DNA of 64,000 bases from a virus. The stretch spans positions 1 to 64,000 of IMG/VR virus record IMGVR_UViG_3300030060_002972; one strand, written 5' to 3'. Positions 1 through 64,000 of the stretch are shown in pieces. Position 1 is the first letter of the stretch. Each line of letters opens with the position of its first letter. The notes beneath the pieces were generated by a model. It was not told the DNA's origin and did no database searches. It was given only the letters and a program-made list of their open reading frames with translations. The translations under genes and the position numbers were made by a program.

Positions 1-1
1 A

Positions 2-211
2 TCTATGCAATATAGACAGCATTGTCTTAACAGACATTTTGTAGATTCACCCAATACTACTTCTGCAACAACATATAAGATACAAGGTAAAAATGCTTAT
101 ACAGCAGGTGGTGCAAATATAGTTTACGTTAATAGGTCTCATAATGATGGAGACAATTTGTATGCAGGATGCTGTCAAAGTGAATTAGTTTTAATGGAGG
201 TAGCTGGATAG
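2..211 (+). CDS. Tail fibre tip protein, C-terminal fragment cut by window edge
   Basis: Only the last 69 or so residues are present. They match residues 105-172 of the protein at 42,661-43,179 almost residue for residue, and end in the same LMEVAG motif. The family looks like a small beta-rich tail fibre or receptor-binding tip. The upstream part lies outside the window, or, if unit A is circular, is supplied by the 42,661-42,972 segment. The DNA for LMEVAG contains a GGAGG that serves as ribosome binding site for the next gene. Function is inferred from position and paralogues only. Confidence 0.7.
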   Translation, partial: SMQYRQHCLNRHFVDSPNTTSATTYKIQGKNAYTAGGANIVYVNRSHNDGDNLYAGCCQSELVLMEVAG

Positions 212-660
212 TGAGTAAAGCAAGAGAATTAGGAACGTATACAGGAAAAATATTACAGACAGTGCAAATGGAAACTGACTCACTTACTTCATCTAATAGC
301 ACTACTTATGTAAATACTTCAGTAACACTTAATATAACACCATCAAGTACATCTAATAAAATTTTAGGTATAGCAACAACAGCTGTGGGTACTGACAGTG
401 ATATTGTAGCTTTAACAAGAGTTTATAATTCTACATCTACAACAGTTGTTTCAGACGTTAACCGTTATACACCACGAAGTAGTGCCCTTGTTGTAAATCA
501 CGGTTCACATACTTTTGTAGACTCACCATCATCTACAGATGCACAAACTTATGTTGTTCAAATTGCTTCTGATAGAAGTGCAGTAAGTTACTTTAACAGT
601 AGAGGTGGTGGAAGCATAGCATCACATTCATCAATAGTTCTAATGGAGGTAGCAGGGTAA
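211..660 (+). CDS. Tail fibre tip paralogue
   Basis: A 149-residue protein starting at GTG, with GGAGG about 10 bases upstream inside the preceding gene. It shares the N-terminal RELGxYTGKILQTV motif, a central ITPxSTSNKI motif and the terminal LMEVAG with the 42,661 protein and with the C-terminal domain of the 41,306 protein. These are therefore tandem paralogues of one fibre domain. The middle is Ser/Thr-rich and differs from the paralogues, as expected for a receptor-binding surface. Unit B has no counterpart at this place. Role in host recognition is inferred. Confidence 0.75.
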   Translation: MSKARELGTYTGKILQTVQMETDSLTSSNSTTYVNTSVTLNITPSSTSNKILGIATTAVGTDSDIVALTRVYNSTSTTVVSDVNRYTPRSSALVVNHGSHTFVDSPSSTDAQTYVVQIASDRSAVSYFNSRGGGSIASHSSIVLMEVAG

Positions 661-980
661 TGCCAGTAACAAGTATAGCGACAGGGACAGTAACCACAGA
701 TGGCACTGAACAGACCGTAGGTTCTGCACAAACAGGAGATTTCTTTTTCTCTGGTTACATAGATTTATCAAACAATGCAGCTGGAGATACAGTTGTAATA
801 AAAATAAAAGTAAGGGTAGATAGTAGTGATATTATATGTATACAAGATACATTTACTGGTGCACAAGCTGAACCATTATATTACTTTCCACCACTACCTA
901 GTACAGAAAATTTTGTAGTAACAATACAAAAAACAGGTGGAACAAATAGAGCATATAAATTTAGGATATTTACAGCGTAG
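660..980 (+). CDS. Small conserved tail or fibre protein
   Basis: A 106-residue protein beginning MPVTSIATGTVTTDG, with ATG one base into the previous stop codon and the preceding GGAGG as ribosome binding site. It is nearly identical to the unit B protein at 43,179-43,499, differing mainly in the first 35 residues. It is predicted beta-rich with no transmembrane segment. It always sits between the fibre tips and the 20-residue-repeat protein, so a structural or fibre-assembly role is likely, but I do not recognise a named family. Confidence 0.7.
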   Translation: MPVTSIATGTVTTDGTEQTVGSAQTGDFFFSGYIDLSNNAAGDTVVIKIKVRVDSSDIICIQDTFTGAQAEPLYYFPPLPSTENFVVTIQKTGGTNRAYKFRIFTA

Positions 981-1607
981 ATGGCATTAGGTAGTTTTTC
1001 AGGATTTAGACTTTATCAAGCTTCAATAAGTGCAGCACCGCCTGTATTAGAAGTTGAGCCTGATTCTGTTACAACAACTAACGCTTTTGGTACACCAGTT
1101 GCTAAGTTACAAGTTAATGGTACAGGATTAGCAAGTGCAGTAGCATTTGGTACATCTGTTACTAAGTTAGAATTAACAGCTACTGGATTTGCTGATGCAG
1201 ATAACTTTGGTACAAGTGTTGCTAAGTTACAAGCTAGTAACACAGGTATATCTGATGCTGATGCATTTGGTACACCGACAAGTACATTACAAGTTAGTGC
1301 AACAGGATTAGCTAGTGGTCTAGCGTTTGGTACAAGCAGTCCTGAATTAGAGGCTAATGCTACAAGTGCTACAACAACAAATGCATTTGGAACACTAGGT
1401 GCTACATTAAATATAACACTTAGTGGGTTTGCAGAAACAGACGCTGTAGGTAATGCGTTAATAGTATTTAAGGATTGGGAAGTAGTAGTTGCACCTACAA
1501 GCACAGACATGTCATTAGTAGCAGCTGCAAGTAGTACAGACTTTAGTGAAGTAACTGCAGCAAGTAGTACAGATTTTACACAAGTGGAGAACGAAGGTAG
1601 TTTATGA
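981..1607 (+). CDS. Tail fibre-like protein with six 20-residue repeats
   Basis: A 208-residue protein starting directly after the previous stop. Residues about 34-153 form six tandem repeats of about 20 residues, each starting (A/N)FGT and followed by a KLQ-like strand and a T-G turn. This suggests a repetitive beta-fibre shaft. The tail has three S-T-D-F/M style repeats and ends NEGSL. Unit B (43,500-44,129) also has six repeats, but their sequences have shifted. It overlaps the next gene by four bases. A thin fibre or fibre-shaft role is inferred. Confidence 0.7.
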   Translation: MALGSFSGFRLYQASISAAPPVLEVEPDSVTTTNAFGTPVAKLQVNGTGLASAVAFGTSVTKLELTATGFADADNFGTSVAKLQASNTGISDADAFGTPTSTLQVSATGLASGLAFGTSSPELEANATSATTTNAFGTLGATLNITLSGFAETDAVGNALIVFKDWEVVVAPTSTDMSLVAAASSTDFSEVTAASSTDFTQVENEGSL

Positions 1608-3049
1608 GAAGGTTTATAAAAGATTTATCTGGTGGCTTAAATTTAGCTAGACCACCACACTTAATAGAAGATAACCAGTGTTCTGTTGCAACTGATTGTG
1701 TATACAGGTCAGGTAAATGGCAGAAACGTGATGGTTTTGCAAACTTAACTGCAACAACAGACACTGCAAAAGTATTAGAAATAACTGACCAGATAAGAAA
1801 TGATGGTACAGCTAGAAGATTTCATGCTACTACAAATAATATATATGAGTGGAATGGTAGTAGTTATACAGCTAGATTAGCTGCAAGTAGTAATAGATTA
1901 TCAACAGAAAAATTATTCTTTACAGAAATAAACAATGAGATATATGTAACAGATAGTAAGAACAATATAGCTAAATCTAGTACAGGAGCATTTAGTAATG
2001 TATCTTGGGACACAAGTAGTTCTGGTAGAAATGTAACAGCTGCTCATGTGATATTAGCATTTAATTCTAGATTATTATTATTTAATACAACAGATGGTAC
2101 AGATGGAGAAGTACCATTTAGAATGTTGTACACTGATGTTTTAGATTTTGACCGAGTGTCTAATTTAAATTTTCTAGATTTAGATTATTCTGGTAGCCCT
2201 ATTGTTACAGCAAAGAGACTAGGTCAAAACTTTATAGCAGTGTATAAATCAGACTCTATTGTAACATTACAAGACCAAGGTAGTCCATTATTTTTTGTAC
2301 CTAAAGCTAGACAGACTATAGGTATTATAGGACCTAAAGCTCTAACAGATATACCTAATGGGCAGGTGTTTGTAAGTAATGATGGTATTTACGTATTTAA
2401 CGGAGCTAATGTAGAACCTATAGCAGATAGAACTGTAGTAAGTGAACTATTTAATAATTTAAATTATACATACAAAGACAACATATATTGTTGGACAGAT
2501 TTAAAAAACAGAGAAGTAATAATCCATTACCCTACAGGTAGTAATGAAGAACCAGATAAATGTATTGTTTGGAACTATCAATCTAATGTTTGGAGTCAAT
2601 GGAATTTTAATGCATACGCAGGATTCTACAGATACAGAACTGTAGCCGTACCAGAAGTTTATTTTGGTTCTGCATCAGGAATAGTAAAACAGAGAGATAC
2701 ATCAGGAACAGATGGCAGCTCTGCTATAGCTAGTACACTGGCAACCAAAGCATTTCACAGTGTGTTTGGTGGCACAGTTTTAGGAGCATCAGCTGAGAAA
2801 GCTACAGATTACGTGCAGGTGTTAAGAGTACAAACTGATGCCACACCAGCAAGTACCTTGATATCTGTAGGAACTGCAGACTTAGGAACAGACAGTCCTA
2901 GTTATACAGACCAGACTATTACAGATACAGACGGTAAAGCACCAAGAGCAGACTTTAATAATTATGGTAGATACACAACAATCAAAGCTACAAACTTTAC
3001 AAGTTTGTCAGAGTTTGTAATAGACCTAGAATCTGGAGGAGATAGTTAG
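1604..3049 (+). CDS. Tail stabilisation/hub-like protein
   Basis: A 481-residue protein that is nearly all short beta strands, with motifs such as FVSNDGIYVFNG and VWNYQSNVWSQW. These resemble the propeller-like packaged-DNA stabilisation and tail-hub proteins of short-tailed phages (P22 gp10-like in style). The unit B copy (44,126-45,571) has exactly the same length and is about 90 percent identical by eye, making it one of the most conserved genes shared by the units. It sits in the tail operon, sharing ATGA-type overlaps with both neighbours. The specific family is inferred from motif style, not from a search. Confidence 0.65.
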   Translation: MRRFIKDLSGGLNLARPPHLIEDNQCSVATDCVYRSGKWQKRDGFANLTATTDTAKVLEITDQIRNDGTARRFHATTNNIYEWNGSSYTARLAASSNRLSTEKLFFTEINNEIYVTDSKNNIAKSSTGAFSNVSWDTSSSGRNVTAAHVILAFNSRLLLFNTTDGTDGEVPFRMLYTDVLDFDRVSNLNFLDLDYSGSPIVTAKRLGQNFIAVYKSDSIVTLQDQGSPLFFVPKARQTIGIIGPKALTDIPNGQVFVSNDGIYVFNGANVEPIADRTVVSELFNNLNYTYKDNIYCWTDLKNREVIIHYPTGSNEEPDKCIVWNYQSNVWSQWNFNAYAGFYRYRTVAVPEVYFGSASGIVKQRDTSGTDGSSAIASTLATKAFHSVFGGTVLGASAEKATDYVQVLRVQTDATPASTLISVGTADLGTDSPSYTDQTITDTDGKAPRADFNNYGRYTTIKATNFTSLSEFVIDLESGGDS

Positions 3050-4305
3050 TGGCTATAAATCAGTACACGTTTGATGATATAGTTTTACCAGTGCCTCCTG
3101 TATTTGTACCTGGAGAAGTGTTTGACTATACTACTAACAAATTACCTAAGTATTTAAAATCACAATATACATCTATGCTAGATTTAATTTCTGCTATACA
3201 AAATGCATTTCTTGTAAGCAATGAACAAATATCTGGATTAGATGCAGATAAGATTACAAACAATACACAGTTTACGCAAAGTGTATTTGTAGGTGCAGAA
3301 AGTAAAATAAAACTAGATGGCACTAATAATCAAATAACTATTACAGACAATCAGGGCTCACCAGTTACAAGAGTTATACTTGGTAAATTAAGTTCTGCTT
3401 CAGATGATTATGGATTAAAAGTTATTGATGCTAGTGGTACTGTATCTTTTCAAACTGGGTCAACTACATTTATAGATGGAGGTATTATAACTGCAAACAC
3501 AGTTACAGCTACACAAATTGCAGCAGATACAATCACAGCAAGTCAAATAGCTGCAGATACTATAACAGCTAGTGAACTTGCAGCAAACTCTGTAACAGCT
3601 AGTGAAATAGATGTAGCTAATTTGTCAGCTATATCAGCTGACTTAGGAACTGTTACAGCAGGTACTATTACAGGTGGGACAATACAAACTGCATCTAGTG
3701 GTCAAAGATTAGTTGTAAGTAACACAGGATTACAAGCTATTAATAGTAGTGGCACTACAGTAGCTACTATTGGAAATGATGGACAATTTAGATTTGGTCC
3801 AAGTACTGGTGATAATGTTTCATGGAATAATACAACTTTATCTGTAACTGGAGATATAATAGCTACAGGCAATATACAAGATGGAGCTATTACAGTACCT
3901 ACTGTAACAACAGGTACATCTTCTGATGGTAGTAATATAAATTTAGTTGTATCTACTAAAGGTGGAAATGTTATAGGAACTATATCTGTTGTAGCTGTAG
4001 TAAGAGGTTTGACTTCAGTAGGCACAGGCATTGGTAATATGAGAGTGCAAATAGATGGAAACACATTTAAGAATAGTGTAGGTTCTAAGGCTACATCTGG
4101 TGGTGGTAGTGTAGTGGTAGGACAAAATACTGATGGACAAACATGCACTGGTACATTCTTAGACGGAGACCCAGCAGGTAGTATAAGTAGTGCAGCTGAT
4201 ACAACATACACTGTAGCAGTTGATATTACGGATGTGATAACTGATACCACGTTAAGTATAGTAAGTTATACAGCAACTTTAGTAACATTGGAGACATTTA
4301 AATGA
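3049..4305 (+). CDS. Tail fibre/tip protein with T-I-T-A repeats
   Basis: A 418-residue protein with a GTG start overlapping the previous stop and a GGAGGA ribosome binding site; the unit B copy starts with ATG at the same place. Residues about 145-225 carry repeats of the form ADTITASQIA, typical of the trimeric stalk of phage tail tip proteins. The C-terminal 130 residues form a beta-rich domain nearly identical between units. It is likely a host-contacting tail component. The N-terminal region is more conserved than the middle, consistent with attachment to the tail. Confidence 0.7.
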   Translation: MAINQYTFDDIVLPVPPVFVPGEVFDYTTNKLPKYLKSQYTSMLDLISAIQNAFLVSNEQISGLDADKITNNTQFTQSVFVGAESKIKLDGTNNQITITDNQGSPVTRVILGKLSSASDDYGLKVIDASGTVSFQTGSTTFIDGGIITANTVTATQIAADTITASQIAADTITASELAANSVTASEIDVANLSAISADLGTVTAGTITGGTIQTASSGQRLVVSNTGLQAINSSGTTVATIGNDGQFRFGPSTGDNVSWNNTTLSVTGDIIATGNIQDGAITVPTVTTGTSSDGSNINLVVSTKGGNVIGTISVVAVVRGLTSVGTGIGNMRVQIDGNTFKNSVGSKATSGGGSVVVGQNTDGQTCTGTFLDGDPAGSISSAADTTYTVAVDITDVITDTTLSIVSYTATLVTLETFK

Positions 4306-4478
4306 GTAATTGTGAATGTAAAAGTAAAAAATTATTACAAGATAAATTAGAAGAAGCACAGAAAAACTTTGAACAGATGAAAGCTAGTATACAATTTATA
4401 TCTGGTCAAATAAAATTATTAGAAGAACTAATAGAATGTGCATGTAAGGAAGACGAATGCGAATGCAAAACTGGATAG
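4302..4478 (+). CDS. Small cysteine-flanked coiled-coil protein
   Basis: A 58-residue gene overlapping the previous stop as ATGA. It begins MSNCECKSKK and ends CACKEDECECKTG, so two clusters of Cys-x-Cys flank a 35-residue helix rich in K, E, Q and L that looks like a coiled coil. Unit B has the same gene at 46,854-47,024 with all six cysteine positions kept although the rest has changed, so it is a real gene. The cysteines could bind zinc or form disulfides. It could be a tail-assembly factor; function unknown. Confidence 0.8.
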   Translation: MSNCECKSKKLLQDKLEEAQKNFEQMKASIQFISGQIKLLEELIECACKEDECECKTG

Positions 4479-4825
4479 ATGAATATACCAGAGAGGCGAA
4501 GCCCTGTGTTGATGTCAAAGAGTTTATTAGCACTAATGGGGTTACTCAAAATATATGGGTAGACAATATACCCATAGGTATTTTTGTATATACATTTTGT
4601 ATAGATACAATATCTATTCATATTATGTGGATAAAACCAAAGTATAGACACAAATTTAGACAAGCTGCTAAGTACATAGCAGAATGGTCTATAGAAGAAG
4701 GATACAGGGAAGTAGAACTAATAGTGGATACAAGAGCGTGTGCAATAGTAGAAAGATACTTAAAATTAAAACCTGTACAAAAAATTTATTTAAGCAAATT
4801 AGATAGAATATTGGAGGTTCTATAA
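4457..4825 (+). CDS. GNAT-like acetyltransferase fold protein
   Basis: A 122-residue protein. The segment IHIMWIKPKYRHKFRQAAKY and the following EEGYREVELIV resemble the beta4-alpha3-beta5 core of GCN5-related N-acetyltransferases, where acetyl-CoA is bound. The usual Q/RxxGxG loop is not clear (RHKFRQA), so activity is uncertain. Start ATG has AAGGAAG upstream and overlaps the Cys-rich gene by 22 bases; two Met codons are available (residues 1 and 3). The unit B copy (47,012-47,422) is strongly diverged. Small GNAT-like proteins occur among tail genes of many phages, with unknown substrates. Confidence 0.6.
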   Translation: MRMQNWIDEYTREAKPCVDVKEFISTNGVTQNIWVDNIPIGIFVYTFCIDTISIHIMWIKPKYRHKFRQAAKYIAEWSIEEGYREVELIVDTRACAIVERYLKLKPVQKIYLSKLDRILEVL

Positions 4826-6066
4826 TGGGATTGAGTAAAAGTAAGTCTAAACAGAAAAGTGTTTCTGGACCATCTAGACAACAAACAACAGCAGCAAATA
4901 TTTTGCTAGAATCTATTGTTCCAGGAAGTGTAGGAACACGAGGATATAGTAGACAACAACCTGTTCAACAAATGCAAACACAAACAGGATTGCCTGTTGA
5001 AGGGTTTAGTACCCCAAGAGCAGGTGGTGGGGGAGGATATTTTTCTGGTGGTACATTTCAACCTGGTCAAACACCTGATGCTAATAAAGTAGGACAAGGT
5101 ACGCTTGAAGGATTTATGGCAACACAGAACTTAGCAGACCAAGGACCTTATACTTCTGTACTAGGAACTGGTAGAGAGTTTAGTGGGCAACCATTAGGTC
5201 CAGACCCAGTAACCAGAACATTGTTACCTAGTCTAGAAGAGATGAAATTTAAAGGTACATTTGACCAGCTTGATAAAGGTCAGCTGTCTCCAACAGCTGC
5301 AGGTGTAGTAGAAACTGGTGCTGCATTAGCTAGTGACCCACTTGGACAAGCTCAACAAGCAGCTGCTCAGATAGACCAAGCAGTAAACCAAGGTCAAGTA
5401 ACTACGTTACCTGAGTTACCAGAAATAACTGATTATATAAGTAAGGTGTACGAAGATATGCCTGGACCACTTAAAAATGTTATAGATGATTTCTTACAAG
5501 GTGGTACAACAGAAAAGATAGAAGAGAGTATACAGAAGAATGTAGCTGCAATTAAAACACAAGCAGAAGATATATTACAAAGTCAATTAGATATTACGTT
5601 TGGTAAGTTTGCATCTGCAGGAGCAACAGGTGGTGCAATGTTTGCAGCAGCAGGAGATGTGACTACACAAGTCATGGGTAATGTATCTGCAAGTATAGCA
5701 GGATTCTATGCACAAGCATTAACTCAAGCACAGCAACAACAACAGGTTGCATTACAAACACTAAGTACTGTAATAGGAACAGCAGGACAACAACAAGCTT
5801 TAGATGCACAAAGACAAGCTATAGAGTTAGACACAACTACAAAACTTATAACTGCAAAATACAATCTGTATGCAGGTATGACACAAGAATTTTTAAGACA
5901 AAATCAGTTTTACACTGATATAGTAAGACAAGAAACTAGTGCTGCTAATCAGCAAGAGTTTCAAGCATTAAGTATGTTTTACGAAATACTTACAAGTTTA
6001 GCAACAGGAGGACCAGGAGTAAGTGCAGGTGAGCAAAAAAGTTCATCATTTACTTTTGGAGCATAG
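4825..6066 (+). CDS. Virion-associated protein, Gln-rich
   Basis: A 413-residue protein, start overlapping the previous stop. The N-terminus is SKSKSKQKSVSGPSRQQT, followed by a Gly/Gln-rich segment with QQPVQQMQTQTGLP, then helical regions with Gln runs (residues about 295-340) and a Ser/Phe C-terminus. The unit B protein (47,432-48,709) shares the N-terminal motif and the overall plan with much substitution. It stands before the large virion proteins and is probably an internal or tail-tube component ejected with DNA, by analogy with podoviral internal proteins. No catalytic motif seen. Confidence 0.6.
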   Translation: MGLSKSKSKQKSVSGPSRQQTTAANILLESIVPGSVGTRGYSRQQPVQQMQTQTGLPVEGFSTPRAGGGGGYFSGGTFQPGQTPDANKVGQGTLEGFMATQNLADQGPYTSVLGTGREFSGQPLGPDPVTRTLLPSLEEMKFKGTFDQLDKGQLSPTAAGVVETGAALASDPLGQAQQAAAQIDQAVNQGQVTTLPELPEITDYISKVYEDMPGPLKNVIDDFLQGGTTEKIEESIQKNVAAIKTQAEDILQSQLDITFGKFASAGATGGAMFAAAGDVTTQVMGNVSASIAGFYAQALTQAQQQQQVALQTLSTVIGTAGQQQALDAQRQAIELDTTTKLITAKYNLYAGMTQEFLRQNQFYTDIVRQETSAANQQEFQALSMFYEILTSLATGGPGVSAGEQKSSSFTFGA

Positions 6067-6069
6067 AGC

Positions 6070-8418
6070 ATGGCACAACCAACAGATAGATTTAGATTAA
6101 GAAACTTTGGTAATAGAACCAATCAACAACAGACTACAGCACCGCAGTTTGAAGACACATCTGCAGACCAAGCAGAGCAAGGAGCTACTGTACTAGAAAA
6201 ATTTTTAGGTAAAGCTGGTGATATTGGTGGGGGTATTAAGCTAGAAAAACAAAGTCCTTTAAAAGCTTTTGGTAGCCAGTTAATGGGTAGAACTAAAATA
6301 GGTAGTGCTATAAATGCATACCAAGACCAAGTTAAAATAAACCAAGCAGCTGATATACAAGAAGGTCTAAGCACTGGAGGTCAATTTAAATATGAAAGAG
6401 CTAATAATCCTGTGTATACAGATGAAATGGGGAATGCTATTACAGACAAAGAAACTTTACAAAAATTAAATGCACAAACTGGTTTTTCAGATTCTGATAT
6501 GACTTTAACTGCAGCAGCAGCTAAAGGTAAAGGATTGGTTAAGCTAGTAGACAATGTAACAGGTGAAGTTTTAAATGAGAAAAAAGTTACTATTGACATG
6601 CCTACATCAGAGATAGGACCAGATGGTATGGCTGTAACAAAAAAGATAACACAAACTGTATATGTAAATCCAGATGCTTACTTGTCAGACCCTAGCGTAA
6701 GAAAAGAATTAATACTTAAAAAGACAGAAGAGAATATGAAAAACATAGGGCTTGACCAAGATGTAATAGACCGAACTATAAACAATTTACGTAACACAGT
6801 AAATAGTAAAGAGCTACAGATAGCTCAAGCAAACATGAAATTAAAAACACTTAAGTCTGATTTCTTTTTAGCAAATCTAGGCACATCACTAGGTGGAGGA
6901 ACAAAAGCTGGAACTAGCAGTAGTAGTCAAACAGACACTGTTATAGATACTTATAATAAATCTAAAAATGTAAAAGATGCTGCATTACCAGAAAAAATAT
7001 TTACTATAATTGGAAGCACTGGTGATAAGGTTAGTAATGATTCTGATTATGTTTTACCTTTAACAGCTGACAAAGCATTGCAAAATGCTGGTATAAAAGA
7101 TGCAGACACTGTTGCTAACCTTAAAGGATTTATAAATGTACAAACACAAGCAAAAGCAGGTGACCCTAAAGGTACATTAGGTATAGCTAGTTCAGCTAAC
7201 ATAGGTACAGCTATTGGAGTTTATCTAAAAAGTGACGGAGATAACATACAAGAAACTAATTTTGATGATGATAACTGGGCAGAGAGTAAAGATACTCATA
7301 AGAAAATGAAAATGGCAGTTGAGTTAGGAATAATAAATAACAACTATACAAACCTGCCTTATGCAGAAAGAATACAACTTATGAAAACTGCTGTAACTTT
7401 AATGGATGAAGCTGTGCTACCTCAACTTAGAGCATTTCAAGTAGGTTTTAGTGAAACAGACAGATTAAAATATATGAAAAGTTATGATGCTTTAAAAGGA
7501 CTAGCAGCAGAAAAAGTTAGATTAATGGGAGAAATAAAGAAGATATCTAAAATGAGTATGTTAACTGGTGAAGGAGCAAACATACAACAGAACGGAGAAA
7601 GACTAGAAGGTTCAGGTATATTTGTAAACAAAGAAGCTCCACAAACTCCTGTGTACTCAGTAGAAATGGATGAAGACGGATATGCTGAAACATTAACTTT
7701 TGATGTAATAGATGAAAGACTTATTAGTATGAGTAGAGAAGAGGCAGGTAGTTATTTAAGTAATTTAGTAGACAGAGAAATATTAAAACCAGAAGCTGCA
7801 CAATTCTTTGCTGACAAGTTAAATTACCAAAGAAGTAGAACAGCTGGTTTACAAAAAGATTTAGAAAAAATAAATTCTTTAGGTAGATTTGGGTCAGTGC
7901 AATCTGCAGCAAATGCAGAAGTACCAGGTCCAGGGCAAGATAGAACTGGCATACTTGGAATGGATTATGTGTCAGATGTAGCTGATTTAAAATTAAAAAA
8001 AGGTCAACTAGTATTTAATGAAGAGACAGGCAAATTTACTAGTACATCTTCAGGAAGCCAGACAGCAATTGGGTTTGGTTTAGGAGATGCTTCTGAAACT
8101 ATAGTAAGAGCAAATGCTGGGCAAAGATTAAATGTAGATTATGGAAAACTTAGAGACAAGGGATACAATGATGTTACTAAAGCAGAGTATATTGAAGTTA
8201 TTAAGAGAAAAGCAAACAGTGATGACCCAGAAGTCTTAAACAAAATGCAGACTAGACTAGGAGTAGATGACGGAGAGTTTGAAATTATTAAAACTTTCCT
8301 AAGACAAAACAACACAGAAGAATTAATGGAATTTTTAGATGAGGTACAATCCTCAGCTAAGGAAAGAAAAAGCGGAGAACCGGGTGCAGTAGAGGCATTA
8401 TCAGGATTCTTTGGATAA
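6070..8418 (+). CDS. Large putative internal virion protein (782 aa)
   Basis: A 782-residue, mostly hydrophilic, helix-rich protein in the position normally taken by ejected internal core proteins of podoviruses, directly before the 2,264-residue protein. No signal peptide, transmembrane segment or peptidoglycan-hydrolase motif was visible. The positional equivalent in unit B (48,725-50,935, 736 residues) shows no convincing similarity by eye although genes on both sides match, so this may be a replaced gene. Function is inferred from position and size only. Confidence 0.6.
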   Translation: MAQPTDRFRLRNFGNRTNQQQTTAPQFEDTSADQAEQGATVLEKFLGKAGDIGGGIKLEKQSPLKAFGSQLMGRTKIGSAINAYQDQVKINQAADIQEGLSTGGQFKYERANNPVYTDEMGNAITDKETLQKLNAQTGFSDSDMTLTAAAAKGKGLVKLVDNVTGEVLNEKKVTIDMPTSEIGPDGMAVTKKITQTVYVNPDAYLSDPSVRKELILKKTEENMKNIGLDQDVIDRTINNLRNTVNSKELQIAQANMKLKTLKSDFFLANLGTSLGGGTKAGTSSSSQTDTVIDTYNKSKNVKDAALPEKIFTIIGSTGDKVSNDSDYVLPLTADKALQNAGIKDADTVANLKGFINVQTQAKAGDPKGTLGIASSANIGTAIGVYLKSDGDNIQETNFDDDNWAESKDTHKKMKMAVELGIINNNYTNLPYAERIQLMKTAVTLMDEAVLPQLRAFQVGFSETDRLKYMKSYDALKGLAAEKVRLMGEIKKISKMSMLTGEGANIQQNGERLEGSGIFVNKEAPQTPVYSVEMDEDGYAETLTFDVIDERLISMSREEAGSYLSNLVDREILKPEAAQFFADKLNYQRSRTAGLQKDLEKINSLGRFGSVQSAANAEVPGPGQDRTGILGMDYVSDVADLKLKKGQLVFNEETGKFTSTSSGSQTAIGFGLGDASETIVRANAGQRLNVDYGKLRDKGYNDVTKAEYIEVIKRKANSDDPEVLNKMQTRLGVDDGEFEIIKTFLRQNNTEELMEFLDEVQSSAKERKSGEPGAVEALSGFFG

Positions 8419-8427
8419 GGAGACACA

Positions 8428-11400
8428 ATGGCAGAAGAAAGAGACACGGGCATATTAGACCCAACGGACTTTACAGAACCAGATGAATTATTTGACTACA
8501 CTGATTATGTTAGTAGCAGACCAGATGTAGACCCTATAGACTATGTAATAACTTCACAGCATACTGCATATAGTAATGCACCAGAAACTGAGATAGATTC
8601 TAATTTAGCAGAATCTTTTTTACATGGATTAACTTTACACAACGTAGGCTCAGCACCAGAAAACTTATTTTCTACTGAAGGAGCAATGTATCTTTTAGGT
8701 AGTTTTGTACCTCTTGTTACAATTAACAGAATGGCAGTTGCACAAACACCTAAGCTTTTAGCAGGACTACGTAATATAGTAGGAGGTAAACCTACTGGAT
8801 TAACAAAAGCATTACAATCACAACAAGTAGAGTTTGGTAGCCGAGTTGCTTTAGAAGCAGGACTTTGGGCAGGAGTTGACCCTAACCTTGAAGGAGTAGA
8901 TGGGTACAAAGAAGCTCTAGCTTATACCTTCTTAGGAGAAGGTTTATTTTTAGGTATACAACAAGGAATAAAATCTAAATTAAAACTTAAGAATGGTGTA
9001 GGTTTAGAAGAGCCTGGACCTACAGAGGTAACAACTAGAGCAGTATTAGATGATGTTTTTGGTGGACCAATTAAAAACATAGATGAAAAAGGTGTAAAAG
9101 ATTTTTACAGTATGAAAGCTAGGTATGATGAAAACTTAACAGATGAACTAGAAGAGTTAATACTACAAAGTAAACAAATTCAAAATGCTAAATTAGCTCA
9201 AGCTAGAGGTATGTACTCAAATACAATAAGACATACTTCAGATGAATTACCTAATATAAGTTTAAATGTAGATGATTCAGTGAGTGTAATGACTCCTGAT
9301 GGTGTGTACAAAATTAGTAAAGATGATATCAAGAATTGGAAAGCTAACCCTGTTATAAAACAACCTGTAGCTAAGAAAGATTTAAAAGTTATGAGAGCTA
9401 CACAACCTAATAAAAAATTAAAAGATGTATTAACTGAAGAACAGGCAGACAGTATTATAGAACAAATGAGTAATAGGGCTAACTTCTTAAAACCTAAAGA
9501 CATAAAGAAATTTAATCCATTCTATTACTACTCAAAGTTTGGAGCTAAGGATACTGTTACTAAAAAGAAACAAGTTAGAAGAGTTAAACGAGCTACAAAA
9601 AAACAAGAAGCACAAAAAGAAAGAGGTACTATTACTAGTGATAAGTTAATAACTTATCATGCAACTATACGTGGACTAAGAGGTAGTCCTGATGAGAAAA
9701 ACTTTAATGACGTACTAGGAGATTTTATTGCTGGTAGAAGTGCTAAAACTCCAGCAGGAAAGTTACAAGATTTTAAACGACTAGAATCACTACGTTATCT
9801 AGACAAGAGTTCACAAGGTAGATTAAGAAAAGCTCCTACCCCTGACCCTATACTAACACAACTAGGTAAAGGTAGACGTAAGCAAGAAGTAATTACAGGG
9901 TTAGGTCCAGAACCTGTTAGAAAAGAAATAGCAGCTGCAGCAGCTGAGGGTAGACGAGCAGAAGCAGACCCACTTATTCAAGCCTGGAAAGCAAAAAACA
10001 AAGTAAAAGTTATAGACCCAGCAGTAGACCCACTAGGCAGTAAACAAACTGCTAGAGCTAGAAAATCTAAATTACCTACAGAAGAACAAGCTGTAAAAGC
10101 AGCTGAGATATTAGAAGAAGGTAGAATACAATCTAGACAAATAAGTTATAACAGATACAAGTCTACTTATGAAACGGATGCTAGAGCATTTATGGATACT
10201 TTTAATATTAATAACTTAGTAAAAGAAAAAGCACAAGCTGCAGGATTGTCAATGTCTAAAACAGTTCCAGATGTTATTAGAGGTAAAAACTTAGATGTAG
10301 AAATACCTGCTATAGATGATTTAATAGCTAAGAATCCAAAAAGATTAAGCACTGTTAAACGAGTAGTATTAGAAGCTGAAGAAGAATACAATAAAATACT
10401 AGCAGAACATGATACTATTGTACAACAATTTGACCCATACGTAACAGGTAGAGCTAGATTACCAGAACCAGAAGGTCCATTAACAAAAGAAAGTGTACAA
10501 ATAGAATTACCAGAAACTGTACTAAGGTCACCTCATGATACTTTTATGCAAAGAGAAATGTTTGCATTTAAAGATTATGTAGATAACGTGTTAAAAGACA
10601 CAAAAGCAGCAGGTCAAAAGAAACCTATAGTAGATGTAGACCCAGATACAGTAACACCTAAGTCTGACAAGTTAACATTTACAGAAAGAGTTACAGGCAT
10701 AAAGTTTGCTAGAACTGTAAAACCTAAACAAAGAACAGACATAGAAGATATGATGGAGCAATTCCAAGGTAAAGGTAATTCATATACTTTTATAATGGGT
10801 AAGAAAAAATATGCACCATACAAAGAAATAACATTAGGTAAAAGAAAATATCATACAGTTCCTGTGCCTAAAGATTTACAAGATACTGTAGAGTTTATGC
10901 CTACTGGTATATTTAAACCAGTAGATATGCCTATAGAAGCATATGTAAAACAACACAGAAAATATATAAGAACAGTAGTACTAGACAATACACTATCAGA
11001 CCCTGGACTTCGTAGATACATAGACAGTCCAGAAGATATAAACAAACAACAAGTAGAAGTAACAGGTAATACAACTTCTGTAAGTTTAAGTGAAGCTAAA
11101 CATGCAGATGGCTACAATAATTTTATGGGACAAGCTATGGATATAGTTAATAATGCTGTACCTCAAGCTACTTACAAAACCTTAAGTGCTGCTAGAAAAG
11201 CACAAAGTATACCTCTAAACAAAAATATGTTTGTAGCATTAGATAATGCTTTACAAGATGTGTTTGTTAGACTAGGGCACGGTGCATACAATAAAAATGT
11301 ATATATGGATATACTAAAGAAAGCACTTAAAACCAGAGGTATAGACTTAGAAAAACTACCTAAAGGTCCTATACCTCCTGCAGGTAAAAGAGCTATTCAA

Positions 11401-15222: not shown

Positions 15223-15231
15223 GAGGTTAAC

Positions 15232-15426: not shown

Positions 15427-15454
15427 CGGAAAATGCGTAACACGAGGAGGTTAT

Positions 15455-18298: not shown

Positions 18299-18314
18299 GG
18301 GAGTATGTGCCAGA

Positions 18315-29612: not shown

Positions 29613-29615
29613 ATG

Positions 29616-42657: not shown

Positions 42658-42660
42658 TAT

Positions 42661-50935: not shown

Positions 50936-50942
50936 GTGTTAC

Positions 50943-53900: not shown

Positions 53901-56900
53901 GGTACAAAACAAGATAAAATAAAAGGTGCATATGAATTAACTAGACGAATTTTAACTGATGAACAATTAATGATGGATGTTATAAATAAAAATACACAAA
54001 CACAAACATTATTTTTGTTAATGAAATCTATAGATAATCCTAAATTAAAACCTGTAGTAAAACAAATTTTGCAAGCAAACAAAACACAAACATCTGTAGT
54101 AGATTTATTACATAACATGGCTAAACAAGAAAACGCTACTAACAAACCAAGCGTATCACTTACTAGCACTGGAGATACACGATTAGTTAATGAAGAATTA
54201 CAAGACGCTACCGGTGGTGAAAGCGGTGTTATAAAACGTGTTTACAATTATTTCTTTAAGGAATATCAACAAATAATGAGAGACAGTGGTTTTGAACCAG
54301 GTGTAGCTATACAAAAATTAGCATCTAATGCAGAACAATCATACACAAGAGAAGCTAGTAAAGGCGGATTAATAGAAACTACAGTATTAGAAGTAAAACA
54401 AAAATTAAAAAATACACTAGATGAAGTAAATAGTGGGTTAGCACCAGGCGCTGATAAATATACCAAAGATGATATTGATAATATTTTGGTTCAATTAGAT
54501 AGATTAGCTAGTGGAGATAATGGTAAAGCAGCTGCAACTAAAATATTTAATGCGTTGCCAGGACCTGTACAAAGATATGTAGGTGAATATCATTCTACAT
54601 TACGTAAAGCCTTGGAACGTTTTAATAGCAAAGTAGATGACATAAATCTTATGGTAGAAAAAGGTGAAGTGTTTCCTGATACAGGTATAAATGTACCTTG
54701 GAAAGACCTTAGTCTAGAACGAGTTGACCCGTTAGATTTTTATTTTCCTAGATTTAGTAACGTAGAAAAAATGAACATAGAAAGATTTGATGTTTTTGCT
54801 ACAATTAAATATGCAGACGGACACACTCAACGTGTACGTGTAGTTAATGAAGCTGTAGATACCTTAGAAGATGTGCATAGAAAAATTATTGACCATGCAG
54901 ATGTAGGTTTACCACCAGGAGCCGTATCATTAAATTACAATGTATCACCTACACAACCATTGTTACGAAGTATTGACCAATACAATCCTACATCACAAGC
55001 ACAGCAAGTTGTAGACGACATTGAAAATTTATTTCAAGTTGATTACAAAACCGTTAAGTCTGCATTAGACAAAGGCGGTTATAATTATCAAACTTTTTAT
55101 AACGATGCGTTTATTGCTGGTCCAACATTTGCAAAACAAAGAACAGGTTTTGCTGCTAATTATGACACTGACCATTTAACAGTATTAAATACATATTTAA
55201 TGAAAGAATCTAGATATAGAAATTTTATTGAACCTGTAATAAAACATGACGCATTAAAAAGATACATGAAAGATACTCCGTTAGTAGATAAAAATGGCAA
55301 CACTATGACAGGCACTATGGATTACGTTAGTCACATAGTAGATAACATGTTAGGTAGACCACAACCAGCTACAGTTATGTTTAACAAATTACTACAAGGC
55401 ATTATTAAAGGTGGCAAGTTATACAAAATACCTGGCATATCTAAGGATGCTGATGTTAGAAGTTTCATAGATGCTAACTCTACATTTAACTATTATCTAC
55501 AGTTTGCAGTAGACATACCAGCATCGTTAATACAAAGCACCATGGCAGTTACTTCTGTGTTACCGGCAGCGGGTAGGTATGCTTTTAGTATGCAACCTAT
55601 GAAAGATGCTACAAATTTATTGTTAAGGTCATTAGTAAAAAATGACAGAGTTGCAAAAAATCCTATATTAAAACGTGTGCATAAAAGTTTCAAAAATAAA
55701 TTAGATAAATTAGACACACAAACTAAACAAAAATATGATGACTTAGAACAAGTATTTGTAGACATGAATCTTGAAATAGATAGTGCTCATGCTGTGCATA
55801 TGGCAGACCAATATACAGCACAATTTGGTGTTGAAGCTAGTAATTTCTTAAAACGTAGCTATCACACAATAGGTAATGCTGTGACATATGCATTTAGAAA
55901 AGGTGATATTATCCCTAGACGTTTAGCTGCTACTTTAGCCTATGAAAATGCCGATGCAGCTTTCAATAATGTTGCTAAAAAATTAAATAAAGCTGAAGTA
56001 GATTGGTTAGCTGGACCATTAAACACAGAAAAAGTTAGAAGTTTATTAAGACAAAAAGGTTTAACATTGAATCCATTGGAAGAAGAAACTATGAAACTTA
56101 TGGTTAATTCTTCTAACCGTCAATACACTAATACTGGGCGTACTTATGCAACTAAGACACAAGGTGCGTTTTACACTAAAGAAAAAGTAGGGATGCAATG
56201 GAAATACAAAGCTAACAGAAACTTTAAGAAAGATTTAGCTAAAAATTTTAGTGAAGAAACTAACCACAAATACAACTCAGCTAACAACACTGGATTTATG
56301 AATGAAGGATTGTTAAAAAACTTTAACTTGTACAAAAAATTTGCAGTAAAAGAATTTAGTAGGTTAGTGGGTTATGGTAAAAAAGGACAATACCCGGCAC
56401 TAGCTGCTAGTCTGTTAGCGTATCAACAGATTGCAGGAAGTGTAGGATTACCTTTTGCAAGAGACTTAAAACAATTATTAGAATGGGCATACTACGGGTC
56501 AGAAGTAATAGCTAAACCAAAAACAGAAGCTAATCCAGCTTTATTAGATATGGAATCTAACTTAAGAGCCTATGCAGCAGACAGCCCACTAAGAAAATAT
56601 GCGTTGTTTGGTCTTGCATCTACAGCGGGTATTGATTTAACACAAAGTGCATCTGTTAATATGGAAGGTTACTTTAGTCCAAGAACACCTATAAATGGAT
56701 TTGGTGATGTTGTAGGTAATTTAGTGTTAGGAGATACTTATAGACGTATGAAATCTATGTTTAATCGTATAGCTAACTTAAAATCACAAGGCAACTTATA
56801 CGAACTAGGCGGAGAAACTGGATTACAAAAATACATTAGAGGTTTTGAGGCTGCGGCACCTTTTATTCCAATGGGTGAACAAGCAGTAGACGCCTTACAA

Positions 56901-57395
56901 GTAATCAACGGTATGCAACCTAGAGATTATAGTGGACGACTTATGGATGTGTATGGTAGACAGGATGAGTTAAGCCAAGGTAACGAAGCTATACTAAAAT
57001 TATTAGGATTTAATACTATGGATGAGGTATTATATAAACAAACATCTTCATTAATTAGTGGAAAAACTGGTAAAGAGTTAAGAGAAATAGACAAAATAAA
57101 ACGAAGACATTTTGTTAATGATGCTTTTGGATTAATTACAGATTACATAAATGCAACTAACGAAGGTGAAGTTGATGCAGAAGAAGTTGATGACATTATA
57201 GAAGAATTGTCTGAGATTGTCACTTATTTTGGTGGGGATAAACAACTGTTAAATGCTATGAATTATGCATTTGTGACAAACAATGTGCCTAGAGATATAT
57301 TAAAATTAAAACGAGGCACAGCTAAACAGAAACAATTAATTATAAACAACTTAGATATTTTATTACGCCAAACTAACAAAGGAGGACAAGACTAA
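50943..57395 (+). CDS. Giant internal virion protein (2,150 aa, unit B)
   Basis: A 2,150-residue counterpart of the 8428-15222 protein. It starts at TTG with only a weak upstream AGG; no other start exists for more than 100 codons. It is Lys/Asn-rich. Hydrophobic segments near residue 1,515-1,540 (FAVDIPASLIQSTMAVTSVL) and a conserved C-terminal plan match unit A. Amino-acid conservation is low in the first half. Probably packed in the capsid and ejected with DNA. Confidence 0.7.
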   Translation: MGIKKQLTIDKLKNYKKVPIGGQDTITAPQVDLQSITQNTFNKLNTQKQEEELNTDLNLEINAPTIVKPDTYISDNELNASSLFSLENLVGRENSDYINNAIDEFLPNFHIDPGEIIYGRKNSYENPTAAQAFYNGLMPGRDRDIADFAERVEFARANGINPLDTYIDSFMWGLGEALQFYGYWRMSGAFAKNLLIPALTRIGILSKSKRIAELGEGTEKVVNRLPKVLQQDAKKFLTDNKYRQQLIGTIGVESSIVTAVEDDIVDGILYTVGYPAAFKYGFIPGFKGFIDVAGKGLTKVVDKGKNLVIKSQTEDDIPKPLNKITSLIQKVLDGTQKDGIENLGTNTQKVIKELENISVEGQKNLGDLIKTSAALQNDVQKLLKVFNTKVVGIINNIGNTTATKNIKALLDSPDLKNGDFETLIKFTKLIANESKHGHKQNRKKFFVSVLDEADDMLSKFGNSDVATIVAPGKIPLTKDNSRILYSKIKTKLQDLVGHTKGQAADVDSTLRQALGFNTSQSPDAIFKNLLHKLQGKFANKVNKNSQTDLGTLLNLAKENPKGITKLIDNISALNDYKKFISNETFDNQSRNWKKLVYHIKNVQAVTGMTGVKRKINKILDTKRDYNKLFDVAGRKTSEVKIQKGKKGKTETVTIIEQEDRFGYKQDIARKQRLRQELGIPITRSVSLRQLLNRSQKGFTREEYDTALTLLRKEIEEAGLLPQDLSKELGRQLTRRNRIKRSAFNTRVRNDLASDEALDEIAQRFVDDIQIKAEMAKYGIDPSIVNRSSLDKLTKRKKRLRELHTDLNNQLFKSNTKIQTHINKIGSIVNKISNGKETLAMLNPFKNIQEINQGIKFVSRYQQGQSLEVGDGLANATKMFAAMEKNISNTIKSGAQNSNNLNKEFFRFMNDYLNEKNLNTPELRDVQEVIASVLTSGRTTAEIKTKARTGLYKTLVAHVYDDLPGIGHILQVRGKKEDAQFIKKLISGTKQDKIKGAYELTRRILTDEQLMMDVINKNTQTQTLFLLMKSIDNPKLKPVVKQILQANKTQTSVVDLLHNMAKQENATNKPSVSLTSTGDTRLVNEELQDATGGESGVIKRVYNYFFKEYQQIMRDSGFEPGVAIQKLASNAEQSYTREASKGGLIETTVLEVKQKLKNTLDEVNSGLAPGADKYTKDDIDNILVQLDRLASGDNGKAAATKIFNALPGPVQRYVGEYHSTLRKALERFNSKVDDINLMVEKGEVFPDTGINVPWKDLSLERVDPLDFYFPRFSNVEKMNIERFDVFATIKYADGHTQRVRVVNEAVDTLEDVHRKIIDHADVGLPPGAVSLNYNVSPTQPLLRSIDQYNPTSQAQQVVDDIENLFQVDYKTVKSALDKGGYNYQTFYNDAFIAGPTFAKQRTGFAANYDTDHLTVLNTYLMKESRYRNFIEPVIKHDALKRYMKDTPLVDKNGNTMTGTMDYVSHIVDNMLGRPQPATVMFNKLLQGIIKGGKLYKIPGISKDADVRSFIDANSTFNYYLQFAVDIPASLIQSTMAVTSVLPAAGRYAFSMQPMKDATNLLLRSLVKNDRVAKNPILKRVHKSFKNKLDKLDTQTKQKYDDLEQVFVDMNLEIDSAHAVHMADQYTAQFGVEASNFLKRSYHTIGNAVTYAFRKGDIIPRRLAATLAYENADAAFNNVAKKLNKAEVDWLAGPLNTEKVRSLLRQKGLTLNPLEEETMKLMVNSSNRQYTNTGRTYATKTQGAFYTKEKVGMQWKYKANRNFKKDLAKNFSEETNHKYNSANNTGFMNEGLLKNFNLYKKFAVKEFSRLVGYGKKGQYPALAASLLAYQQIAGSVGLPFARDLKQLLEWAYYGSEVIAKPKTEANPALLDMESNLRAYAADSPLRKYALFGLASTAGIDLTQSASVNMEGYFSPRTPINGFGDVVGNLVLGDTYRRMKSMFNRIANLKSQGNLYELGGETGLQKYIRGFEAAAPFIPMGEQAVDALQVINGMQPRDYSGRLMDVYGRQDELSQGNEAILKLLGFNTMDEVLYKQTSSLISGKTGKELREIDKIKRRHFVNDAFGLITDYINATNEGEVDAEEVDDIIEELSEIVTYFGGDKQLLNAMNYAFVTNNVPRDILKLKRGTAKQKQLIINNLDILLRQTNKGGQD

Positions 57396-57591: not shown

Positions 57592-58239
57592 ATGCGTGTA
57601 CATATTTTAATATTATTAACATTATTGTTATTTGGATTAGTAGGTTGGGTCAAAGTATTTGCTACCGACAACAGCACATCTAACCAAACTAATACGTCTG
57701 GTTCAAACACCAGTATTAGTGGTGGGTACACATCTACTACTAACAATACGTACAGTGGTGGGCAAACCAACACGACCACTAACAGTACAACTAATAGTAC
57801 AAAAAATAGTAAAATACCTGTAGGCACCGCTACTGCACCTAGTATGTCATCGTACAGTCAAGATTTATGTATTGTAGGCGTATCTGGTGGAGTGCAAGTC
57901 ACCGGATTTGGGGTATCAGGTGGCACATATGTTACTGACGAGAATTGTGAACGAATGAAACTATCAAAACTTCTATATGATTTTAATATGCGAGTTGCAT
58001 CAATCGCAATTCTCTGTCAGGACGATAGAGTATTTTCTGCTATGGAACACGCAGGCACACCTTGCCCGTTTGAAGGTAAGATAGGAAAAGATGCAGAAGA
58101 CCAATGGAAAAAATATGACGTAGAAAGACCTGACTACGACAAATATGTACAAAAATTAAAACGAAGAGCGGCTATAGACAAAGAAACAGAATTTGTACCT
58201 ATAGACACGGAGTATGATTTATATGGAGACGATGATTAA
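57592..58239 (+). CDS. Exported Cys-containing protein (unit B)
   Basis: A 215-residue orthologue of 15829-16458. The signal peptide is longer (ILILLTLLLFGLVGWVKVFA), the Ser/Thr/Asn linker is nearly identical, and all four cysteines of the C-terminal domain are kept (LCIVG, ENCER, ILCQDD, TPCPF). The conservation is notably higher than in the giant virion genes just before it. Function unknown; probably periplasmic or outer-envelope. Confidence 0.7.
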   Translation: MRVHILILLTLLLFGLVGWVKVFATDNSTSNQTNTSGSNTSISGGYTSTTNNTYSGGQTNTTTNSTTNSTKNSKIPVGTATAPSMSSYSQDLCIVGVSGGVQVTGFGVSGGTYVTDENCERMKLSKLLYDFNMRVASIAILCQDDRVFSAMEHAGTPCPFEGKIGKDAEDQWKKYDVERPDYDKYVQKLKRRAAIDKETEFVPIDTEYDLYGDDD

Positions 58240-59605
58240 ATGTGGTTACTTATTGTTAATTGCATTCTTGATAGCGTGGGCAGCAACCGCAGAAGAGATA
58301 ACGACTGGAAACCTTTTGCCAAATGGTTCTGGAAACGCAAGTAACTACCAATCTGTAGATAATACTATACCTAACGTAACAACTAATGGTTTTAATGTGG
58401 TTGGTAATGTTAGAGATTGGGGACAAGAATTAGAAACAACAGGTACAGGTAGTATTAATTACACTGGTAATTTAACTGACCATGCTACACAGCAACAATT
58501 AGACAATGGTATTAGATTAGATTCTACTACTATAGTACAAAACTGTGAGTGGGTAGGGTCTAATTGGCAGTGCGGACAAGCTAGAGCAGGTCAAGACACA
58601 TATACTACTACCGTAAAAATATTAGATGATGAAGGTAATACATTAGCCATAGTAAATCAAACTAGAAATAATGACTCTGGGTATGGTGCAAACGCATACA
58701 AGTATGAAGATTCTGTTACATATACAGGTGCGGGCAGTAATCAATTTTACTGGGAATGGGAAGGTGTAGACGAAGGCAGTTATGTAAACTTAGGTGGACC
58801 TAATTTGCTTGGTGCAAAACTTACAATGACCTATGATGACACTGTAATACCGGAAGAAACTATAGAAGAAATATATGAAGTTATAGAAGAATTTGAGGAA
58901 TGGCAAGAGACATTTGTACCAGTAGAATTTATAGAAGAGTTTATTCCGTTACCTGTTTTAATAGAAAAATTTCCTATGTCAGTGTTAGAAGAAGAAATAG
59001 TTTTTGAAGAACTTAATGCTATTGAAGAAGAGTTTGAAGAAGTAGAAATACTACAAGTATTTGGTGGACCTGAAATAGTAGAGGAACCAGAAGAAGAAGT
59101 TGTAGAAGAACCAACACCTACACAAGCTGCAATAGAACCTACACAAGAAGAAACTGAAACGGAAAGTGAACCACAAGAAGTAAATAATGAACCAGCGTTA
59201 GTAGTAGCTGAAGAACCAGAACAGGGTACAGTACCCGAAAAAACACCTAGTGTAAGTGTAGATAATATACAAGCAGAAGTAAGTGTGACAGTTAAAGAAG
59301 TAGATAAACAATTAGCTGTAGTTAACGTAGTAGCGGCTAAGATGATAGAAGATAAACAAGTAGATATTTCTAGTTATTACAAACAATACACAGATAACCG
59401 TGAGATTTATGATAGTCGTATCTATGAAGATTTGCGTATATTAGATAATTATGATATACAAATATATAACAATAATAATAAATTTGTAGCTATATCTGTT
59501 AATGACCCTGTATTAAAATATCAAGTACAATTTCAGAAAGCTAGAAGTATACGTATACAAAAAGAAAAAGAATTAGAATATTTAAGGAGACAATATGCTA
59601 GATAA
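58223..59605 (+). CDS. Exported Glu-rich protein (unit B)
   Basis: A 460-residue orthologue of 16442-17815. I start at ATG 58,223, the codon matching unit A, with CGGAG upstream; a Met three codons earlier is less likely. The signal peptide, the beta-rich domain with NCEW and WQCGQ, and the C-terminal helical domain are conserved. The Glu-rich middle differs in length and sequence, as expected for a flexible spacer. Confidence 0.7.
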   Translation: METMIKCGYLLLIAFLIAWAATAEEITTGNLLPNGSGNASNYQSVDNTIPNVTTNGFNVVGNVRDWGQELETTGTGSINYTGNLTDHATQQQLDNGIRLDSTTIVQNCEWVGSNWQCGQARAGQDTYTTTVKILDDEGNTLAIVNQTRNNDSGYGANAYKYEDSVTYTGAGSNQFYWEWEGVDEGSYVNLGGPNLLGAKLTMTYDDTVIPEETIEEIYEVIEEFEEWQETFVPVEFIEEFIPLPVLIEKFPMSVLEEEIVFEELNAIEEEFEEVEILQVFGGPEIVEEPEEEVVEEPTPTQAAIEPTQEETETESEPQEVNNEPALVVAEEPEQGTVPEKTPSVSVDNIQAEVSVTVKEVDKQLAVVNVVAAKMIEDKQVDISSYYKQYTDNREIYDSRIYEDLRILDNYDIQIYNNNNKFVAISVNDPVLKYQVQFQKARSIRIQKEKELEYLRRQYAR

Positions 59606-59831
59606 ATTACAAAAATATGCAATGATAGTTGGTGTGGTATCTGCTATTGGTGGCGGTTTCTACGCATGGGGTGAGTTTAATACTAGATTAGATGCAGTAT
59701 CTCAAGCAATAGGCAGTGACAATGTAGAAAAACTACAACAACAAGTTAATTTGTTAGATAAAAAATTGGAAGTCTTAGAAGCTAAACTAGATGAGTTTAG
59801 GTCTGGACTAAATAATCCATTGGGGAAATAG
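59595..59831 (+). CDS. Small membrane-anchored coiled-coil protein (unit B)
   Basis: A 78-residue orthologue of 17805-18038, with the same transmembrane helix and coiled coil. It overlaps the exported protein gene by 11 bases. In this unit it is followed by the 432-residue insertion gene rather than by its usual partner. Confidence 0.65.
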   Translation: MLDKLQKYAMIVGVVSAIGGGFYAWGEFNTRLDAVSQAIGSDNVEKLQQQVNLLDKKLEVLEAKLDEFRSGLNNPLGK

Positions 59832-62818: not shown

Positions 62819-63642
62819 TAATAGTTACCATCCCTATCACACACAGGTTTGTGAGGGCAAGATGCACAGATGTATTTAGGAACATCGGTTGGTAAAGCGG
62901 GTACTTGTTTACTCTGTGAGGAGTTTCGCAAGGTGTCCACCAGATGGTGAATGTATGGCTGCCAATGTTCGTAATTTTCTATTACCCTGCCCATTTTGCT
63001 GTATTTTGTATCTACAGGAATGATACAATGTTTCATATCCATAGAGCTACGTCTTGTATATAACAAGATAGCATAGGGTACGTTGTACCCAAGTTGCTTA
63101 GCTATGTATACCCACAACAATAATTGTTTTAGGTGATACTTCCAATATGTAAAATCTTTCCACTTGTAAATTTCTGTAGATTTTAATTCTAACGGTATTA
63201 AATATTTGTTACCGTCCTTGTCTTCAAATTCTTTAACAAAGTCTGTAGTAGCTGCAAATCCTATAGGTTTATCAGCATCCATTTCCACATGAATAGGAAA
63301 TTGATTCTGTTCCGCACTATCTAACCCATGGATTTTTCCAGGCATTTTGTCTATGATTCTTCCCATGGTTTGTTCGTTAACAAATCCCATAAACATTCTA
63401 CGTCTAGCCAATGGGTCAGATACCGGTGTTCTTTCCACATCAGATAGATAAGAATAATATGCTTGGCGTATGCATGTACCAAGACTTGAAGAACGTACTA
63501 AATGTTTCCTACCTTCGCCTCGTGCTTTCCATTCTTCAAATCTTAATGCAAACTCTTCGTCTAGTACAGACTCTGTTGAGTCGTGTAAAGCCTCCAGAAA
63601 CAACTCTGGGTCTGTCATTAGTTGTTTAACTGTGTAGCTCAT
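62818..63642 (-). CDS. Cas4/RecB-like iron-sulfur exonuclease (unit B)
   Basis: A 274-residue orthologue of 19642-20457. The cluster cysteines (SLGTCIRQ and CASCPHKPVC), the metal-binding ATTDF and the LELKSTE motif are all present. AGGAG precedes ATG. Identity to unit A is moderate outside the motifs, in line with the other early genes being more diverged than the tail genes. Confidence 0.85.
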   Translation of the reverse strand: MSYTVKQLMTDPELFLEALHDSTESVLDEEFALRFEEWKARGEGRKHLVRSSSLGTCIRQAYYSYLSDVERTPVSDPLARRRMFMGFVNEQTMGRIIDKMPGKIHGLDSAEQNQFPIHVEMDADKPIGFAATTDFVKEFEDKDGNKYLIPLELKSTEIYKWKDFTYWKYHLKQLLLWVYIAKQLGYNVPYAILLYTRRSSMDMKHCIIPVDTKYSKMGRVIENYEHWQPYIHHLVDTLRNSSQSKQVPALPTDVPKYICASCPHKPVCDRDGNY

Positions 63643-63651
63643 ACAAATCTC

Positions 63652-63924
63652 CTATCCTCTTGGCTCAGCTGGTTCTCCGTCTGTTTCTTCAGCACGTAAA
63701 CTAAATGCTAAATCAGGCGGATTGTTACCATCTCTGTATTTATTCCAAAATGCTAGAACTTTGTATTTTCTACCACCAACTGTAAGAACACATGAGTATC
63801 CCCAGTCTTTTTTCCAACCACCACCAATGTTAACTAGACTTTTCTTTTCACCATTGGTATTAGCTGGAGCACTGGATTCACTACGTCCTCCTACTCTTCC
63901 GGCTCTTGGTTCACCGTATGCCAT
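63652..63924 (-). CDS. Small beta-rich early protein (unit B)
   Basis: A 90-residue counterpart of 20499-20798. The start at 63,924 (MAYGEPRAG) has AGGAGG at good distance and matches MAYQ in unit A; an upstream Met at 63,966 would lie inside the polymerase gene. The core GGGWKK...KVLAFWNK is shared. Possible replication accessory. Confidence 0.65.
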   Translation of the reverse strand: MAYGEPRAGRVGGRSESSAPANTNGEKKSLVNIGGGWKKDWGYSCVLTVGGRKYKVLAFWNKYRDGNNPPDLAFSLRAEETDGEPAEPRG

Positions 63925-63934
63925 AAATGACCTC

Positions 63935-64000
63935 CTATTCCCAGTTGACGCCATGTTCTTTGACATCCAAAGGGAGCTGTAAATTTATGCCTTTACCCAA
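63935..64000 (-). CDS. DNA polymerase A, C-terminal fragment cut by window edge (unit B)
   Basis: The last 21 codons before a stop at 63,935-63,937 read GINLQLPLDVKEHGVNWE at the end, matching GIELDLPLDIKNTGNNWN at the end of the unit A polymerase. The rest of the gene lies beyond the window. This shows that the unit B genome continues with the same early gene order. Confidence 0.75.
   Translation of the reverse strand: MGKGINLQLPLDVKEHGVNWE

Follow-up and report, generated by a model that had tools for sequence, protein, structure and literature searches.

It may be asked whether the virus record IMGVR_UViG_3300030060_002972 describes the genome of one phage or of two. The whole record comprises 83,747 bp and the stretch of DNA that was analysed, here called the window, covers its positions 1-64,000. 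A first-pass annotation of the window had noted that the positions 5 to about 20,900 and 42,973-64,000 carry the same genes in the same order and orientation. This observation was borne out when the record was compared with itself, first within the window and then over its full length. At the DNA level, the window positions 5-204 match 42,973-43,172 with 93.5% identity, the positions 635-4,354 match 43,154-46,906 with 81% identity and the positions 16,032-18,029 match 57,813-59,819 with about 79% identity. Moreover, the positions 83,257-83,747 match 42,269-42,759 with 84% identity, which carries the collinearity beyond the window to the end of the record. Thus, the second unit is collinear with the first one and has the same orientation from its first to its last bases, and it represents a nearly full genome and not just 21 kb. 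The record is composed of the following units:

5-42,972 (42,968 bp; 1-42,972 of the window): unit A, a full lap of a tailed phage that has not been cultivated, with the circle cut open in the array of tail-fibre genes
42,973-83,747 (40,775 bp; 42,973-64,000 in the window): unit B, a related second phage, about 214 bp short of a closed circle

We consider it very probable (about 0.92) that the record is a chimeric metagenome assembly of A and B and that a molecule of 83,747 bp probably never existed. Both genomes are likely real; each half resembles a real phage. They belong to two different but related phages, which are uncultivated and probably of marine origin. A and B are better handled as separate genomes.

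The gene content of the two units carries the first part of this argument. The following genes of unit A have been compared with their counterparts in unit B:

33,985-35,529, plus strand: terminase large subunit (phrog_2), 79% identical to that of B
35,526-37,238, plus strand: portal-like head-tail adaptor (phrog_332), 60.5% identical to that of B
37,766-38,710, plus strand: major capsid protein (PF25209, phrog_1357), 86% identical to that of B
20,823-22,997, minus strand: family A DNA polymerase (PF00476, phrog_17), 45% identical to that of B (63,935-65,998)
25,444-26,511, minus strand: DnaB-like helicase (PF03796), 49% identical to that of B

A primase gene is also present in unit A. It had been proposed that unit A alone contains a full set of phage modules, and indeed one set each was found of the genes for the terminase, the portal-like protein, the capsid, the tail, the DNA polymerase, the primase and the helicase. 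For every structural and replication module of A, including the portal, the capsid and the polymerase, a counterpart exists in B, and the terminase, portal, capsid, polymerase and helicase genes are paired between units that are collinear and diverged. The identity of the paired proteins ranges from 92% (660-980 in A and 43,179-43,499 in B) down to undetectable, with 80-92% for the capsid, structural and some tail proteins, in keeping with the earlier impression of about 90% identity in some proteins and hardly any likeness elsewhere. The collinear but diverged units also support the view that the second unit is a different, related phage and not a duplicated segment.

The most distinctive genes of both units encode two huge adjacent proteins in the tail region, which have 782 and 2,264 amino acids in A (6,070-15,222) and 736 and 2,150 amino acids in B (48,725-57,395). 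In spite of their equal position and near-equal size, no similarity between the A and the B proteins could be detected. The A proteins matched nothing in Pfam or PHROGs and the B proteins, which were compared with Pfam only, matched nothing there. A search for relatives uncovered none for the 2,150-residue protein and a single one with 33% identity for the 2,264-residue protein. Thus, neither unit can be traced via its most distinctive gene. Unit A also contains a five-gene block with a raised G+C content of about 0.41 (26,561-31,104, minus strand), and none of the five genes was matched in B. One member of the block encodes an AAA ATPase (28,560-29,612; phrog_1297, with weak matches to AAA families of Pfam), and another one shows weak von Willebrand A-like matches (26,561-27,703).

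The second part of the argument is based on the positions at which the record starts, switches and ends:

5-94, plus strand: first copy of a 90-bp block, with the record start 4 bp upstream
42,973-43,062, plus strand: the join, a 90-bp exact match to 5-94, inside the tail-fibre gene 42,661-43,179
42,704-42,759, plus strand: 56 bp that recur without a mismatch as the final bases of the record (83,692-83,747)

The join therefore lies at a sequence that is exactly common to both genomes, and its 90 bp are the longest exact run shared by A and B in the whole record. Such long runs are scarce: there are five of at least 55 bp, which add up to 372 bp or about 0.9% of the length of B. The end of the record at 83,747 falls inside the 56-bp run, 214 bp before the position of the join one lap later, and the positions 42,704-42,759 are the probable point at which the path of B re-enters an edge common with A. 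The start, the join and the end thus belong to one circular phase and all of them touch exact identity between A and B, from which we infer a walk through an assembly graph rather than random ends of molecules. The first four bases of the record are ATCT, whereas TGCA precedes the second copy of the block. This mismatch speaks against a chimera of A and B alone and implies that another strain variant, or more than one, took part.

All these positions are located in a tail-fibre array, which contains the following genes at the end of unit A:

41,306-42,364, plus strand: tail-fibre gene (phrog_6942)
42,661-43,179, plus strand: tail-fibre gene (phrog_6942)

A gene for a protein of 97 amino acids lies in between. 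Cross-matches between paralogues revealed that the region 41,306-43,179 is part of a paralogue array, which continues at 5-660. In the compared units, the tail-fibre region spans about 1.7-3.0 kb and holds 44 of the 268 exact runs of at least 40 bp among five genomes (16%). Its share of the length is only about 6%, an enrichment that is modest and varies from pair to pair. Moreover, the local identity in the tail-fibre region reaches up to 97% in some pairs, against a background of 80-88%. The run enrichment together with the high local identity suggests that tail-fibre segments have recently been exchanged among the relatives. A diversity-generating reverse transcriptase was sought as a source of the tail-fibre variation and was not found.

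Given such an exchange, the assembly may have proceeded as follows. A and B would co-occur in the sample and the reads of each phage would give a circular map, as could be expected for tailed-phage genomes that are circularly permuted or replicate via concatemers. Recent exchange of tail fibres would have created short exact identity between A and B, giving rise to two loops of the graph with one edge in common. The assembler would have started in the common block, walked through the loop of A, returned to the common edge, taken the branch to B, walked through the loop of B and stopped at the edge that had already been used. The proposed edge is the following:

42,704-43,062, plus strand: common edge of A and B (359 bp), through which B would close

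A toy de Bruijn graph of the circles A and B with k=89 consisted of two loops with one common edge of 359 bp; the closure of B was assumed in this graph, the segment being absent from B in the record. The 56-bp end would fit an assembler k near 55. At an assembler k of 127, the 90-bp repeat alone is too short to bridge A and B. When exact overlaps between the ends of contigs were measured to infer k, the values were scattered.

Relatives of both phages provide the third part of the argument. Many contigs of the group were found by portal-based and other searches. Three of them, G002, G003 and G004, comprise one lap each (40,570, 42,323 and 40,483 bp), with an overlap of 298, 136 and 98 bp, respectively, between their two ends (98.5-100% identity). 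Each of them has been opened at a different phase, reads through the tail-fibre locus and closes elsewhere. This favours circular maps of one genome length and speaks against a fixed end at the tail-fibre locus. The single-lap relatives of 40.5-42.3 kb also suggest that a virion contains one lap and not two. Another contig, G001 (IMG/VR 3300030099_001444; L029/L037), is an independent record of 45,582 bp, which shows one of the two genomes outside the record with its own continuation. After the common block, G001 does not continue with B but with the start of A itself (positions 2-236 of A, 95.7% identity), including the start of the additional tail-fibre gene of A. Thus, A-type genomes close on themselves and the step from A to B is the unusual one. 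When IMG/VR was searched with the whole 90-bp block as a pattern, no match was obtained, and a 26-base part of the block matched G001 only. Among known phages, a DNA search for near-identity with the positions 1-20,000 yielded no match in the phage collection, and the portal-like protein had no match in 50,697 phage records. In these records, only remote relatives of the terminase and the polymerase were present (22-30% identity). Thus, no cultivated genome can be used as a reference.

The first 8.2 kb or so of G001 are of A type, and the remainder, up to 45.6 kb, is closest to G004 and its relatives. The switch between the two types is located in the same tail-fibre array as the join of A and B. 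The contig overlaps with itself by 5.3 kb, and this overlap comprises two versions of the portal-capsid region, with 83% identity in their best-matching 2.8 kb. The two portals are about 40.25 kb apart and are 99% and 64% identical to the portal of A. Moreover, the last 79 bases of G001 exactly match its own A-type part. As judged by its sequence, G001 is a second, shorter chimera that behaves in the same way as the A/B record.

The best of the other explanations is a real hybrid concatemer, which would have been formed by recombination between A and B at the common tail-fibre sequence during replication in co-infected cells and then been sequenced. Tailed phages commonly replicate through concatemers, the join lies at homologous sequence in a module that appears to have been recently exchanged, and the second hybrid, G001, switches in the same array. 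However, A-A and B-B junctions would supply far more reads than a rare recombinant junction, and a consensus assembly would not favour the latter. Random sampling of a concatemer also does not predict that the record starts and ends at the circular phase of the join, and the passage from the end of A to its start in the outside record G001 speaks against it, which makes the hybrid concatemer very improbable. Likewise, it is very improbable that phages of this group recombine so often in their tail-fibre array during co-infection that real A-B concatemers were abundant enough in cells of the sample to be assembled. The first-pass annotation had favoured a chimeric assembly of relatives, a view that is strengthened by the exact blocks at the breakpoints and by the A-end to A-start continuity found elsewhere. 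By contrast, the packaged or integrated hybrid concatemer that it had left open gained no support: neither an integrase nor a resolvase nor a host gene was found, and the relatives are single-lap genomes.

The tail-fibre block could also be a fixed terminus, i.e. a cos end or a direct terminal repeat, and two linear genomes could have been joined there by the assembler or in a natural concatemer. This idea takes into account that both units start at the same place and that a repeat common to related phages could be terminal. However, the block is part of the coding sequence of a tail gene, at a distance of about 9 kb from the terminase gene, its two 200-bp copies differ by 6.5%, and G002, G003 and G004 continue through the locus and close elsewhere. 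The fixed terminus was therefore rejected as highly improbable, and even if it were true, the join of A and B would still be artificial or part of a concatemer.

It is even harder to envisage that two related temperate phages were inserted one behind the other into a single attachment site, the core of which would be the 90-bp block. The head-to-tail arrangement, the same orientation and the short exact repeat with which each unit begins resemble such a tandem. However, the search of the record for an integrase, a resolvase, a tRNA and a recognisable host gene remained without result, with neither a tyrosine integrase (PF00589) nor a serine recombinase (PF00239) encoded, and both record ends consist of phage tail-fibre sequence instead of host DNA. 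Furthermore, the block is situated inside a tail-fibre gene and the circles of the relatives open at other phases. With the integrase or recombinase gene and the host flank both missing, the tandem of prophages is largely refuted and was rejected as extremely improbable. A single phage of about 84 kb whose entire genome is present in two diverged versions agrees with the record as assembled and was likewise rejected as extremely improbable, because every structural and replication module of A has a counterpart in B, the relatives consist of one lap of 40.5-42.3 kb each and the independent A-type continuation in G001 contradicts it.

The chimeric assembly of A and B falls into a known class of artefacts, the form of which is harder to see here, and the join has no biological meaning of its own. 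Chimeric contigs of co-occurring relatives were present in every virome assembly tested and made up less than 5% of the contigs of at least 10 kb (Roux et al. 2017, PMC5610896). As in these cases, the contig originates from two distinct genomes with highly similar regions; here, however, each genome amounts to an essentially complete lap and the switch can be placed at a single exact block of 90 bp. According to the authors of CheckV, a contig that reaches about twice the genome length or more is probably an artefact, and such contigs are found by k-mer frequency (PMC8116208). The record also has about two genome lengths, but its laps are diverged, whereas the same genome is repeated in the CheckV case. 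Its average k-mer frequency is 1.010 (k=21) or 1.005 (k=31), and not clearly above 1 as CheckV expects for concatemers. Contigs of double-stranded DNA viruses from the ocean have been screened for self-repeats that exceed 10 kb in length and 95% in identity, and contigs with such repeats were treated as chimeras (Luo et al. 2020, PMC7174320). The record likewise contains self-repeats, but its long matches reach only about 80% identity and are shorter. Thus, due to its diverged laps and a k-mer frequency of 1.01, the record would pass both the CheckV k-mer screen and the self-repeat screen of Luo et al. It also resembles the components resolved by Phables, in which related phages are tangled and have to be split into circular paths (PMC10563150). 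However, Phables uses the assembly graph, whereas only the finished contig is at hand here.

In a database, the record would stand for one virus of 84 kb, with an inflated genome size and doubled marker genes. Chimeras of two diverged laps, which slip through screens for duplicated k-mers or for self-repeats of high identity, can be caught by a simple check, namely a search for two collinear copies of single-copy genes, such as the portal and terminase genes, about one genome length apart. When the record is split at the join, two genomes are obtained, of which A seems to be complete and B is nearly so; both belong to a group without a close relative among the phage records searched. If the exchange of tail fibres is the cause, other chimeras of the group are predicted to switch in the same array.

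The tail-fibre paralogues of the record (41,306-43,179; 1-660; 82,540-83,747) have conserved ends (…LMEVAG) and variable middles, and A has one copy more than B. In comparison with A, several relatives (e.g. L015, L029 and L033) carry about 140-160 additional bases at an intergenic point, which corresponds to the positions 41,161-41,167.
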